Shown: positions 5,831 through 9,660 of the stretch, piece after piece | Layout: each line of letters begins with the position of its first letter | Position numbering within the stretch: position 1 is the first letter of the stretch | Source of the DNA: Haloferax sp. Atlit-12N | GTDB lineage: Archaea; Halobacteriota; Halobacteria; Halobacteriales; Haloferacaceae | DNA: 64,000 nt | Direction of reading: 5' to 3' | Assembly (NCBI RefSeq): GCF_003383095.1 | Contig: NZ_PSYW01000001.1 | Coordinates: 186,001-250,000, forward strand | Program-made: the position numbers and the translations under genes | Notes under the pieces: model-generated | Told to the model about the DNA's origin: nothing | Database searches by the model: none | What the model saw: the letters and a program-made list of their open reading frames with translations, nothing else

Positions 5831-6616
5831 GTGACGAACACGCAGCTGACACTCGTCCAAATCGACAACTACGGGCCGTGGACGGTCACTCCGGACCCGC
5901 GGCGGGAGATGGACCTCCAGACGCTCCAGTCGCGGCTCTTCGCCGACTTGGCCCAGTTCGTCGGCTCTCGCGACGGGTACGCGTTTTTTACCCGGTTCGA
6001 CAACATGGTCGCGGTCACGAACGGGCTCGACCGCGACGACCACGAACTGCTGCAGGAGTCTATCGGAAACCGCTATCCCGTAACGCTCAGTCTCGGTATC
6101 GGCGCCGACCGGTCGCCTGCAGTCGCGCTCGAACGCGCCACCGACCGCATCCAGCGCGCCGGCAGCGCGCAGGACGGCGACCGCCGCGAGGTGCTCTCCG
6201 GTGAGACCCTCGCGGACGCCGACCGCTCGGACACCGACCTCCAAATCGCGCACTTCGACGTGAACGACGCGACGGGCAAGTACACCGACCGCCTCAACGA
6301 GTTCGACACGTTCATCCACATCGAACAGGGCTACGCGTCGCTCATGCGCCACCTGCGCGAGGAACACGGTGCGCTGTCGTTCTTCGTCGGCGGCGACAAC
6401 ATCATCTCGGTCACGCCCGACCTCACCGAAGACCAGTACCGTAACGCCATCGACCACGTCGAGGCCGAGGCGGACGTGGAACTCAAAGTCGGCGTCGGCA
6501 CGGCTTCGAACGCCCACGAGGCCGGCTTCGCGGCCAAGCACGCGCTCGAAGACTGCCGCCACCGCGGCACGACCGTCGAGTTCGCCGACGCGGCCGTCGA
6601 GACCGCAGACGACTGA
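5831..6616 (+). CDS. arfA: GTP cyclohydrolase III (GTP cyclohydrolase IIa)
   Basis: A 261-residue archaeal GCH III, made of two copies of a nucleotidyl-cyclase-like domain. The first contains FTRFDNMVAVTNG and the second FFVGGDNIISVTP, with the GD and ND metal-binding aspartates. The enzyme converts GTP to the formamidopyrimidine FAPy nucleotide, the first step of archaeal riboflavin and F420 synthesis. It does not make dihydroneopterin triphosphate. The start is GTG; it gives the family N terminus TNTQLTLVQIDNYGPWT. The next gene begins 3 nt after the stop, and the operon continues through the PTPS-like and glycosyltransferase genes. Confidence 0.93.
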   Translation: MTNTQLTLVQIDNYGPWTVTPDPRREMDLQTLQSRLFADLAQFVGSRDGYAFFTRFDNMVAVTNGLDRDDHELLQESIGNRYPVTLSLGIGADRSPAVALERATDRIQRAGSAQDGDRREVLSGETLADADRSDTDLQIAHFDVNDATGKYTDRLNEFDTFIHIEQGYASLMRHLREEHGALSFFVGGDNIISVTPDLTEDQYRNAIDHVEAEADVELKVGVGTASNAHEAGFAAKHALEDCRHRGTTVEFADAAVETADD

Positions 6617-6619
6617 ACG

Positions 6620-7618
6620 ATGGAGGGTCGCGCGGTCTACTTCGTGGCCCCCGAACGCGTCGAGGTCCGCGACCGCGACGTGCCCGCTCCCGGCCCCGGT
6701 GAGGTTCGCGTCCGCACCCTGACCTCCGCCGTGAGTTCCGGCACCGAGCGACTCGTCTACCGCGGCGAGGCCCCGACCGACCTCGCCGCCGACGAGTCCA
6801 TCGCGGCGCTCGACGGCGACCTCTCGTTTCCGCTCCGCTACGGCTACGCCGCCGTCGGCGAAATCGAGGCCGTCGGCGACGACGTGCCCGGCTCGCGGCT
6901 CGGAAGCCGCGTCTTCGCGTTCAACCCCCACGAGAGCCGATTTCTGGCGTCCCCCTCGGAACTCATCTCCATCCCCGACGACGTGACCGACGAGCGCGCC
7001 GCGCTCTTGCCGACGATGGAGACCGCGCTCAACTTCGTGATGGACGGACGGCCGCTCATCGGCGAGCACGTCGTCGTCTTCGGACAGGGCGTCGTCGGCC
7101 TCGTGACCACCGCGCTCCTCGCGCAGTTCCCGCTCGGGAGCCTGACCGCGGTCGACTGCGTGGCCGAGCGCCGGGCCATCGCCGAGGCGCTCGGTGCCGA
7201 CGAGGCCGTCCATCCCGAGTCGCTGGACGCGCCCGCCGACGGGGCCGACCTGACGCTCGAACTCTCGGGCGACCCCGACGCCCTCGACGACGCCCTGTCG
7301 GTGACGCGGTACGACGGCCGGGTCGTCGTCGGGTCGTGGTACGGAACCAAGCCCGCCACCCTCGACCTCGGCGGGCGGTTCCACCGCTCGCGCATCAGCG
7401 TCGAGAGCAGTCAAGTCAGCACCATCGACCCCGACCTCCGGGGGCGCTGGGACGCCGACCGCCGCTTTTCCTTGGCGTGGGACCACCTCGAAGACCTCCC
7501 GCTGGACCCGCTCGTGACCCACCGAATGGGTGTCGAGTCCGCCGCGCGCGCCTACCGACTCCTCGAAGACGCCCCCGACGAGGCCGTCCAAATCCTCTTT
7601 ACCTACCGGAACGCTTGA
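6620..7618 (+). CDS. MDR-family dehydrogenase/reductase lacking zinc ligands
   Basis: A 332-residue medium-chain dehydrogenase/reductase. The N-terminal GroES-like part holds SSGTERLVYRGEAP where ADHs carry the catalytic-zinc Cys, and RYGYAAVGEIEAVG where they carry GHE, so the metal site is absent. The Rossmann part starts at VVVFGQGVVGLVTTALL. This pattern resembles the BchC-like branch (SGTERLL, then YGYE.VG). It probably uses NAD(P)H on a ring or side-chain carbonyl. It is sandwiched between arfA and a PTPS-like gene, so a pterin or flavin precursor is a reasonable substrate guess, but only a guess. Confidence 0.8.
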   Translation: MEGRAVYFVAPERVEVRDRDVPAPGPGEVRVRTLTSAVSSGTERLVYRGEAPTDLAADESIAALDGDLSFPLRYGYAAVGEIEAVGDDVPGSRLGSRVFAFNPHESRFLASPSELISIPDDVTDERAALLPTMETALNFVMDGRPLIGEHVVVFGQGVVGLVTTALLAQFPLGSLTAVDCVAERRAIAEALGADEAVHPESLDAPADGADLTLELSGDPDALDDALSVTRYDGRVVVGSWYGTKPATLDLGGRFHRSRISVESSQVSTIDPDLRGRWDADRRFSLAWDHLEDLPLDPLVTHRMGVESAARAYRLLEDAPDEAVQILFTYRNA

Positions 7619-7624
7619 CAGTTC

Positions 7625-8002
7625 ATGTACCGCGTCTCGGTTCGCAGGGACCTCATCGCCCAGCACTACCTGACGGTTCCGAACCCCGGACCGGAAGGTG
7701 AGCTTCACTCCCACGCGTTCACCGTCGAGGTCGAACTCTCGGGCCCGGAACTCGACGAGTACGGCTATCTCGTCGATATCGACGACGTAAAGGCCGCGCT
7801 GGACGCGACGCTGTCTCGCTACCGCGACGAGACCATGAACGAACTCGTCGAGTTCGCCGGGCAGAACCCGAGCGTCGAGCGGTTCGCCCGCGAGGTGTGC
7901 GAACAGTTCGTCGAGGCGGCGTCACTTGAGGCGCCCCAGCACGTCTCCGTTCGCATCTGGGAGGACGACGTCGCGAGCGCGACCTACGAGACGCCGCTCT
8001 GA
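7625..8002 (+). CDS. 6-pyruvoyl-tetrahydropterin synthase/QueD-like protein, Cys-less active site
   Basis: A 125-residue T-fold protein. The zinc histidines are readable as His14 and His28-x-His30 (LHSHAF), and VDIDDVK and the PSVERFARE helix (usual PT.E..A) are present. The catalytic Cys of QueD, four residues before the first His of HxH, is Glu24. The usual Asp-His pair (LDH..LN) is replaced by a DETMN segment. Glu for Cys is a hallmark of PTPS-III proteins, which release 6-hydroxymethyl-dihydropterin. So this is probably not a normal QueD. It starts 6 nt after the MDR gene. Confidence 0.85.
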   Translation: MYRVSVRRDLIAQHYLTVPNPGPEGELHSHAFTVEVELSGPELDEYGYLVDIDDVKAALDATLSRYRDETMNELVEFAGQNPSVERFAREVCEQFVEAASLEAPQHVSVRIWEDDVASATYETPL

Positions 8003-8003
8003 C

Positions 8004-9101
8004 GTGCGGGTCGGAATCGTCGTCTACGGCCCGCTCGACGCCCGTTCGGGCGGCTATCGCTACGACTCAGAACTCGTCGATGGGCTCCGCGCCGCCGGCG
8101 ACGACGTGACCGTCGTCTCGCTCCCCGAGCGGTCGTACCGAAAGCGACTCCGAGACAACGTCTCCGCCGCGCGTCGCCTCCGCGGCCTCGACGTGGACGT
8201 GCTCTTGCAAGACGAACTGTGTCACCCCTCGCTCGCCGGCACGAACGCCGCGCTCGACGACGACATCCCGGTCGTCTCTGTCGTCCACCACCTCAACTCG
8301 CTGGAACAGTTCCGTGCGTGGCGACGACACGCCAGACGCGCCGTCGAGAGTCGGTATCTCCGCTCCGCGGACGCGTTCGTGTTCAACAGCGAGACGACGA
8401 AAGAGACGGTCGCGGCCGTCACCGACCCCGAACCGAGCGTCGTGGCGTACCCCGCCGGCGACCGCTTTTCGTCGTTCGGCGCGCCCCTCGGCGACGACGA
8501 GATACGGGCGCGAGCCACCGACGGGCCGCTCCGGGTCGTCACGGTCTGCAACCTCGAACCGCGGAAGAACGTCGACGGCCTGCTCCGTGGCCTCTCCCGC
8601 GTCTGCGGCGACTGGGAGTTGAGGGTCGTCGGTGCGGCGGTCGACACCGACTACGCCGACTCCCTTTCAGACCTCGCCGTCGCCCGCGGCATCGACGACC
8701 GCGTGACTTTCGCGGGCCGGCTTTCGGACGCCGACCTCGCCGCGACGCTCCGGGAGTCGCACCTGTTCGCGCTCCCCTCACACTACGAGGGGTTCGGCAT
8801 CGCGGCGGTCGAGGCGATGGGGTTCGGCCTGCCGGCGCTCGTCTCGTCGGCCGGCGGCGCGAGCGAACTCGTCACGCACCGCGAGGACGGCTTCCTCGTC
8901 GACCCGACGGACTCGGCCGAAATCACCGACGCCGTGGCTCCGCTGTGTCGGAACCGTCGACGACTGCAGTCGCTCTCGCTTTCCGCCCGCGACCGTTTTC
9001 TCGCGCACCCGACGTGGGACGAGACGGCGGCGACGGTTCGCTCGTTCCTGTTGGACCTCGTCGATGCCGACAACACGGGGTCGTCCCCGAACCGGAAGTA
9101 G
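8004..9101 (+). CDS. GT4-type glycosyltransferase
   Basis: A 365-residue GT-B fold glycosyltransferase. The GTG start at 8004 follows the PTPS-like stop by one nucleotide and yields VRVGIVVYGPLDARSGGYRYD. The C-terminal donor domain contains VVTVCNLEPRKNVDGLL, VTFAGRLSDADL and the signature FALPSHYEGFGIAAVEAMGFG with the E-x7-E motif. Such enzymes transfer sugar from a nucleotide or phosphosugar donor. No membrane segment is visible. As the last gene of the arfA-MDR-PTPS block, it may glycosylate a small molecule rather than a cell-surface glycan; that is inference. Confidence 0.88.
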   Translation: MRVGIVVYGPLDARSGGYRYDSELVDGLRAAGDDVTVVSLPERSYRKRLRDNVSAARRLRGLDVDVLLQDELCHPSLAGTNAALDDDIPVVSVVHHLNSLEQFRAWRRHARRAVESRYLRSADAFVFNSETTKETVAAVTDPEPSVVAYPAGDRFSSFGAPLGDDEIRARATDGPLRVVTVCNLEPRKNVDGLLRGLSRVCGDWELRVVGAAVDTDYADSLSDLAVARGIDDRVTFAGRLSDADLAATLRESHLFALPSHYEGFGIAAVEAMGFGLPALVSSAGGASELVTHREDGFLVDPTDSAEITDAVAPLCRNRRRLQSLSLSARDRFLAHPTWDETAATVRSFLLDLVDADNTGSSPNRK

Positions 9102-9122: not shown

Positions 9123-9608
9123 TCAGTCGCGGGCGACGCGGACCCACTCTTGGAGCGTGAAGCCCTCGTAGTCGGTCTCCGAGTCGAGTTCCCACTCGTC
9201 GTCGTCCCACTCGGGGTAGAACGTGTCGCCCTCGTACTCGCCGGGAACGCGACTCAGCATCATCCGGTCGAGGTGTGGTTGGAACAGCGCGTAGATGGCG
9301 GCCCCGCCGATGACGTAAGCGGTCTCCGCGCCCAGCGATTCCGCGATTTCGACCGCCTCCTCGACGCTCGCCGCGCGGTGAGCCGTGTCGACCGAAAACG
9401 ACCGCTCGCTTCGGCTCATGACGATTTGGGCGCTCCCCGGCAGGTCGTCGAGCATCGACTCGAACGTCGTCCGGCCGAGCACCACCGGGTCGTCGGCGAT
9501 GCGGTTTCGGTACTGCTCCTTGTCGGCGGGGATGCTCGGCCACGGGAGTTCGCCGTCGCGGCCGATGACACGGTTCTCGGCGAGCGCGGCGACAGAGACG
9601 AGTTCCAT
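9123..9608 (-). CDS. hdrA: Dihydrofolate reductase HdrA
   Basis: A 161-residue [44 protein letters not shown], the NADPH-binding YVIGGAAIY and the FYPEWD end. The sequence is very close to H. volcanii HdrA as I remember it. The enzyme reduces dihydrofolate to tetrahydrofolate using NADPH. The ATG at 9606-9608 is the family start; upstream in-frame GTG codons would add three residues. It converges with the glycosyltransferase gene, whose operon carries pterin-type genes. Confidence 0.95.
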
Positions 9609-9660
9609 CACTCTCACGTCGGGCGCGCGCGAGAAAATCGTTGTGCAGCGCGGTCATCGT

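Follow-up and report, generated by a model that had tools for sequence, protein, structure and literature searches.

The protein encoded at positions 7625-8002 of the window, the whole 64,000-nucleotide stretch of Haloferax DNA analysed here, is probably a T-fold member of an uncharacterised pathway common to haloarchaea and several bacterial groups, whose precursor would be either FAPy (2-amino-5-formylamino-6-ribosylamino-pyrimidinone 5'-phosphate) or its deformylated derivative, DARoPP. The residue changes, the family, the gene linkage, the co-occurrence and the cross-domain synteny are observed directly; from them, we infer that the genes recurring around it form one pathway fed by this precursor. 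If this is true, a whole conserved pathway without a known product is present in around 60% of the haloarchaea sampled, as well as in Streptomyces, Agrobacterium and methanotrophs, and the PTPS fold is able to do without the Cys-Asp-His chemistry and, among the bacterial members, without one zinc ligand. In databases, such proteins carry the name '6-carboxytetrahydropterin synthase' and, in most cases, a queuosine GO term; the present evidence contradicts this assignment.

Table 1. Genes of the PTPS locus in the window and of the second Haloferax locus
Feature	Coordinates	Strand	Evidence and remarks
GTP cyclohydrolase III (GCH III; ArfA, FAPy-forming family)	5831..6616	+	PF05165 4.1e-86; NF002587 4e-124; first gene of the operon, only GCH III of the genome
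MDR-type ('zinc-binding alcohol') dehydrogenase (ADH)	6620..7618	+	Nearest curated model BchC, well below cut-off; 35-40% identity to dehydrogenases beside bacterial PTPS
PTPS/T-fold protein, 125 aa	7625..8002	+	Intact ORF; motif AQH14...GPE24GxxH28SH30; Arg67-Asp68; NPSxE 81-85; Glu113
GT4 glycosyltransferase	8004..9101	+	PF00534 2.3e-34; GTG start at 8004 inferred from frame; conserved beside PTPS
Dihydrofolate reductase HdrA	9123..9617	-	NF041386 2.2e-84, 281 bits against a cut-off of 300; convergent to GT4
CDP-alcohol phosphatidyltransferase and SAM methyltransferase (second locus, outside the window)	G000:C1:326316-328109 (L190 6317-8110)		Convergent, directly adjacent

The 7625-8002 protein is a variant within the known PTPS superfamily (COG0720, PF01242), to which it is assigned both by its Pfam score (E 1e-24, 87.3 bits against a gathering score of 22.4) and by its T-fold structure, the AlphaFold2 model built from 23 haloarchaeal homologues being a confident T-fold (pLDDT 94.3). 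Its best solved match is SCO6650 of S. coelicolor (PDB 3d7j), an uncharacterised PTPS homologue whose structure has been available since 2008, where it is listed only as a homologue; the profile match is full length (E 1.4e-15), and the structures superpose with a Z of 18.0 (2.0 A over 125 residues). Behind it, the Foldseek/VIA structure matches are QueD and PTPS proteins, with Z around 16, and Plasmodium PTPS, with Z of 15.0 and below. Among curated models, the protein falls in the PTPS/QueD family, under every cut-off, the nearest being that of QueD, TIGR03367 (42.6 bits against an equivalog cut-off of 89.25). This miss is not decisive, because the QueD of the same organism, with 73.8 bits, also stays under 89.25. 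A protein 99% identical to that of the window is found in H. prahovense. In 2012, Phillips et al. reportedly defined the classes PTPS-IV and PTPS-V by signature motifs, and that classification may already contain the present subfamily as one of the two. As the superfamily itself is known, a relative of the protein has a solved structure and its class may have been defined in 2012, the main finding is the pathway around Glu24, and not Glu24 itself.

The first-pass annotation had described the three zinc histidines as kept and a Glu at position 24 in the place of the QueD Cys, and both observations are borne out. His14, His28 and His30, the putative zinc ligands, are all seen in the ORF; His14 and His30 are kept in 69/69 haloarchaeal homologues and His28 in 66, the other three having Asn (the NSH proteins of L070, L087 and L088, natural zinc-site variants). 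In the alignment with the QueD of the same organism (KCNRPHGH), Glu24 falls on the catalytic Cys, and its presence is not due to chance, because it is kept in 68 of the 69 homologues, the remaining one carrying Asp. The Asp-His pair had been considered unrecognisable, with DETMN at its site. The pair is indeed absent, but DETMN had been misread as the site: when the protein is aligned by profile with E. coli QueD (RLDHHYLND in QueD, RYRDETMNE here), the QueD Asp and His correspond to Arg67 and Asp68, which are conserved in 58/69 and 66/69 haloarchaeal homologues, respectively. Judging from these alignments, conserved residues have taken the place of all three members of the Cys-Asp-His triad. 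Glu113, by contrast, which we take from established family knowledge to be the pterin-anchoring Glu, is retained; this residue is invariant across the 69 homologues, as are Asn72, Asn81-Pro82-Ser83 and Glu85, and Glu26 is a variable position. Other PTPS genes read from the phylum keep CxxxHGH and DH.

In the tree of PTPS proteins, the archaeal and bacterial members form one clade (support 100/98) that contains the 7625-8002 protein and SCO6650-type proteins, apart from the archaeal QueDs and with long branches, a result that agrees with the placement outside queuosine and archaeosine enzymes made earlier. SCO6650 (around 24-27% identity) differs from the haloarchaeal protein in having Ala for Glu24, Ala for the zinc ligand His30 (HGA instead of HSH) and other residues at 67-68. 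The same changes (Ala at 24, the third zinc His replaced by Ala, and differences at 67-68) are found in the bacterial members, and with Glu24 and the third zinc His lost there, the two clades may catalyse different reactions. Such divergence of catalytic-site residues, together with the lost bacterial His and the three haloarchaeal Asn28, would also be compatible with a non-catalytic T-fold protein that binds a pterin or nucleotide, or that serves as an assembly partner of the dehydrogenase or of the glycosyltransferase. However, Glu24, His14, His30, Asn72, Asn81, Glu85 and Glu113 show little or no variation in haloarchaea, a pattern typical of an active site, and we regard a purely binding or assembly role as unlikely.

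It had also been proposed that the replacement at position 24 is the same Cys-to-Glu change as that of the PTPS-III enzymes and that the protein could be of folate type, in which case Glu24 would act as a base in the cleavage of the side chain of dihydroneopterin (or its phosphate), giving 6-hydroxymethyl-dihydropterin. PTPS-III proteins, which serve folate synthesis in Plasmodium, bacteria and some archaea, do share with the 7625-8002 protein the fold (Z 15.0 and below), the three zinc histidines and a Glu by the zinc site instead of the catalytic Cys; Plasmodium PTPS is among the fold matches, its PDB entries call Glu37 catalytic, and a dihydrofolate reductase gene lies next door. Nevertheless, the two Glu are not equivalent. 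The PTPS-III motif is ExxHGH, with Glu three residues before the first His, while that of QueD is CxxxHGH, with Cys four residues before, and that of PTPS-II CxxxxxHGH (PMC5041015). The window protein reads E24xxxHSH, so that its Glu occupies the QueD Cys position, more distant by one residue from the two His than the Glu of PTPS-III, and the PTPS-III position is taken by Gly25 (Gly in 64/69 haloarchaeal homologues); the motif ends in HSH, the Asp-His pair is lost, and the absence of any Cys in the stretch ahead of His28 likewise separates the protein from the PTPS-II enzymes of BH4 synthesis.

Nor does the genomic context resemble that of a folate gene, since the PTPS gene is linked to those of GCH III, ADH, GT4 and a SAM methyltransferase (MTase) and not to folate genes. 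HdrA is not among the conserved PTPS neighbours in other haloarchaeal genera, and its proximity in Haloferax is therefore probably coincidental. Moreover, the PTPS gene is found in 88/145 haloarchaeal genomes (around 60%) and absent from the other 57. All 145 genomes, by contrast, have a Pterin_bind (DHPS-type) gene and also CofG, a gene of F420 synthesis. Judging from this distribution, the protein would not be generally required for the synthesis of folate, F420 or archaeosine. A folate role was thus rejected on the basis of motif and distribution, and we consider it very improbable.

A third explanation would make the gene part of riboflavin or F420 synthesis, the protein carrying out a missing step after FAPy in haloarchaea. 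GCH III produces the formylamino intermediate FAPy, which is deformylated by ArfB, while GCH II carries out both steps (PMC9478397), and the deletion of HVO_1284 (arfA) in Haloferax results in riboflavin auxotrophy (PMC8305020). The PTPS gene adjoins precisely such an arfA, and a 2016 review mentions, as unpublished, a 'PTPS-IV' in F420 synthesis (PMC5041015). A further likeness to the ArfA/ArfB route is the creatininase-family protein of the Streptomyces block described below. However, ADH, PTPS, GT4, MTase and CDP-alcohol phosphatidyltransferase are not riboflavin genes, PTPS and MTase are missing in around 40% of haloarchaea, and the 88/145 genomes with PTPS are to be compared with 145/145 for CofG and 141/145 for GCH III.

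The clearest case is that of genus g39, probably Halorhabdus, in which all four genomes (G050, G079, G089 and G140) have a bacterial-type RibA adjoining RibH, the latter with a much higher score than its haloarchaeal counterparts. GCH III has been lost from three of these genomes; in the fourth, which alone carries PTPS, one copy is left, and it lies within the PTPS block (L047). Thus, GCH III is kept for the block in a genome whose riboflavin synthesis seems not to depend on it any longer. These data and the distribution disfavour a riboflavin or F420 step, which we regard as hardly more probable than a folate role. A similar tie is observed in the genomes with two GCH III genes (18/145), 16 of which have PTPS (hypergeometric P 0.006), in all 16 cases with one GCH III copy within around 4 kb of it. 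The other two, G086 and G110, have two GCH III genes and lack PTPS. Haloferax, with its one GCH III, probably uses the enzyme for both riboflavin synthesis and the PTPS pathway, a dual role that fits the auxotrophy reported for the HVO_1284 mutant.

Finally, that the protein is a QueD which, despite having Glu in the place of Cys, would still supply archaeosine synthesis with 6-carboxytetrahydropterin is scarcely credible: it resembles QueD and PTPS-I in fold (Z around 16), in its three zinc histidines, Glu113 anchor, Asn72 and NPxxE stretch, its nearest curated model is that of QueD and E. coli QueD is among its nearest structures, but Cys, Asp and His are Glu24, Arg67 and Asp68 here, HSH stands for HGH, the protein belongs to a separate, long-stemmed clade, its conserved neighbours (GCH III, ADH, GT4 and MTase) include no queC, queE or archaeosine genes, a normal QueD (CxxxHGH) is encoded elsewhere in the genome just ahead of queE, with queC around 1 kb further on, and four of ten haloarchaea sampled have PTPS but lack both QueD and a strong QueC match. 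A role in queuosine or archaeosine synthesis was discarded on the basis of the separate QueD-queE pair and of these four genomes.

With respect to the locus itself, the genes of GCH III, ADH, PTPS and GT4 are separated by only 3, 6 and 1 nt, the last figure depending on the inferred GT4 start. The order ADH - PTPS - (GT4) - SAM methyltransferase recurs in haloarchaea, GT4 being missing beside PTPS in many loci, and the block is often joined by GCH III (near PTPS in only 39/80 haloarchaeal loci, around half), a CDP-alcohol phosphatidyltransferase and a Gfo/Idh-AKR protein. The patchy linkage of GT4 and of GCH III, an enzyme that also serves riboflavin synthesis, speaks against the proposed pathway. 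In Haloferax, the phosphatidyltransferase and the methyltransferase lie together at the second locus (Table 1), a pairing that is repeated in several relatives. The methyltransferase family is present in 87/88 genomes with PTPS and in 0/57 without it (Fisher P 5e-40, a statistic that ignores phylogeny), a co-occurrence that also holds where the two genes are unlinked, as in Haloferax. The sole genome with PTPS and without the methyltransferase, G077, also lacks the other linked genes; its orphan PTPS (L052), without the usual neighbours, is the Asp24 carrier mentioned above, a copy that is probably decaying or repurposed.

The bacterial evidence comes from plasmid records searched with SCO6650, whose homologues were found in Streptomyces, Thiodictyon, Methylosinus, rhizobia, Agrobacterium, Rhodobacteraceae, Arthrobacter and Microbacterium. 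Most bacterial loci inspected have the order ADH - PTPS - GT4 - SAM methyltransferase, shared by the SCO6650 clade with the Haloferax-type loci, with a CDP-alcohol phosphatidyltransferase, a RibD-family protein and/or a GTP cyclohydrolase II (RibA) nearby; blocks of this order are present in Streptomyces, Thiodictyon, Methylosinus, Peteryoungia, Agrobacterium and Microbacterium. A relative 92% identical to SCO6650 lies in a block made up of CDP-alcohol phosphatidyltransferase, ADH-PTPS-GT4-MTase, creatininase-family protein and RibA. These proteins are homologous across the two domains; where BLAST aligns them, identities are roughly 30-40% for ADH, 23-34% for PTPS, 27-33% for GT4, 23-32% for the methyltransferase and 30-35% for the CDP-alcohol phosphatidyltransferase, whose catalytic motif is intact in all those checked. 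The shared gene order supports the cross-domain PTPS clade independently of the long-branched tree. Three MAG contigs labelled Bacteroidetes/Rhodothermaceae (L136, L137 and L159) carry the haloarchaeal block, with flanks like those of the haloarchaeal MAG L162; they are probably mis-binned, and were left out of the bacterial examples.

The GTP cyclohydrolases, by contrast, are unrelated between the two domains, GCH III being found in archaea and GCH II in bacteria. In SCO6655, a homologue of GCH II from S. coelicolor, a Tyr is replaced by Met, and the enzyme therefore goes no further than FAPy. The RibA of the Streptomyces block has Met, which in the S. fungicidicus protein we take to be at the Met-for-Tyr position of SCO6655, whereas those of Agrobacterium and Peteryoungia have Tyr there. 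Only the Streptomyces RibA is accompanied by the creatininase-family protein, a weak match to the ArfB model (E 3e-9), none being found with the Agrobacterium or Peteryoungia RibA; this is as expected if the Streptomyces enzyme stops at FAPy. As far as can be judged from these sequences, both arrangements, a Met RibA with a creatininase-family partner and a Tyr RibA alone, would deliver DARoPP.

Based on these observations, a pathway can be proposed in which a riboflavin-type GTP cyclohydrolase, GCH III in archaea and GCH II in bacteria, would act first on GTP. Since the cyclohydrolases are of riboflavin type, dihydroneopterin triphosphate is probably not the PTPS substrate. The idea of a novel pterin enzyme, advanced in the first-pass annotation, thus survives as membership of an uncharacterised pathway, in an altered form that ties it to riboflavin-type cyclohydrolases. 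With Ala24 and the third zinc His lost in bacteria, the zinc-dependent side-chain chemistry of PTPS-I, PTPS-II and PTPS-III is an unlikely candidate for the step that both domains share. Instead, the PTPS protein would most likely hold the 2-amino-4-oxo-pyrimidine or pterin ring by the conserved Glu113 and could catalyse an acid-base isomerisation or ring closure, for instance, an Amadori rearrangement and cyclisation of DARoPP to dihydroneopterin phosphate. This reaction, analogous to the second half of that of GTP cyclohydrolase I, would be the most economical idea, a speculative one that we hold to be rather doubtful. If the RibD-type reductases found in bacterial blocks act first, the sugar would already be ribityl, and an Amadori closure would be ruled out.

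Further core enzymes of the pathway would be the MDR dehydrogenase, the GT4 glycosyltransferase, the SAM methyltransferase and the CDP-alcohol phosphatidyltransferase. Together they suggest, speculatively, that the product is a pterin or pyrimidine with sugar and methyl groups and probably a lipid link, the pathway also including glycosylation, methylation and, probably, the attachment of a phospholipid or another phosphodiester group. As a whole, it is conceivable, though somewhat short of probable, that FAPy/DARoPP is diverted by a rebuilt PTPS-fold enzyme into a new molecule of this kind, be it a cofactor, a pigment or a membrane component, with GCH III and GCH II having been recruited independently. 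Older work described the 'halopterins', glycosylated or phosphorylated pterins of haloarchaea. Literature searches on the gene cluster, the Haloferax locus tags and haloarchaeal 'halopterins' returned no description of the cross-domain block.

Some additional copies of the gene deserve mention. In two plasmid records of Haloarcula marismortui (NZ_CP039137.1 and NC_006395.1, hits H29/H30), the PTPS homologue is in two pieces with no annotated gene, which suggests that the copy is frameshifted in this strain, and genome G038 has a second PTPS copy, also in two pieces, near a second methyltransferase. On two Streptomyces plasmids (L180 and L181), a solitary SCO6650-type PTPS lies near genes for MEKHLA-domain, cupin and MBL-fold proteins, possibly representing a further function of the clade.
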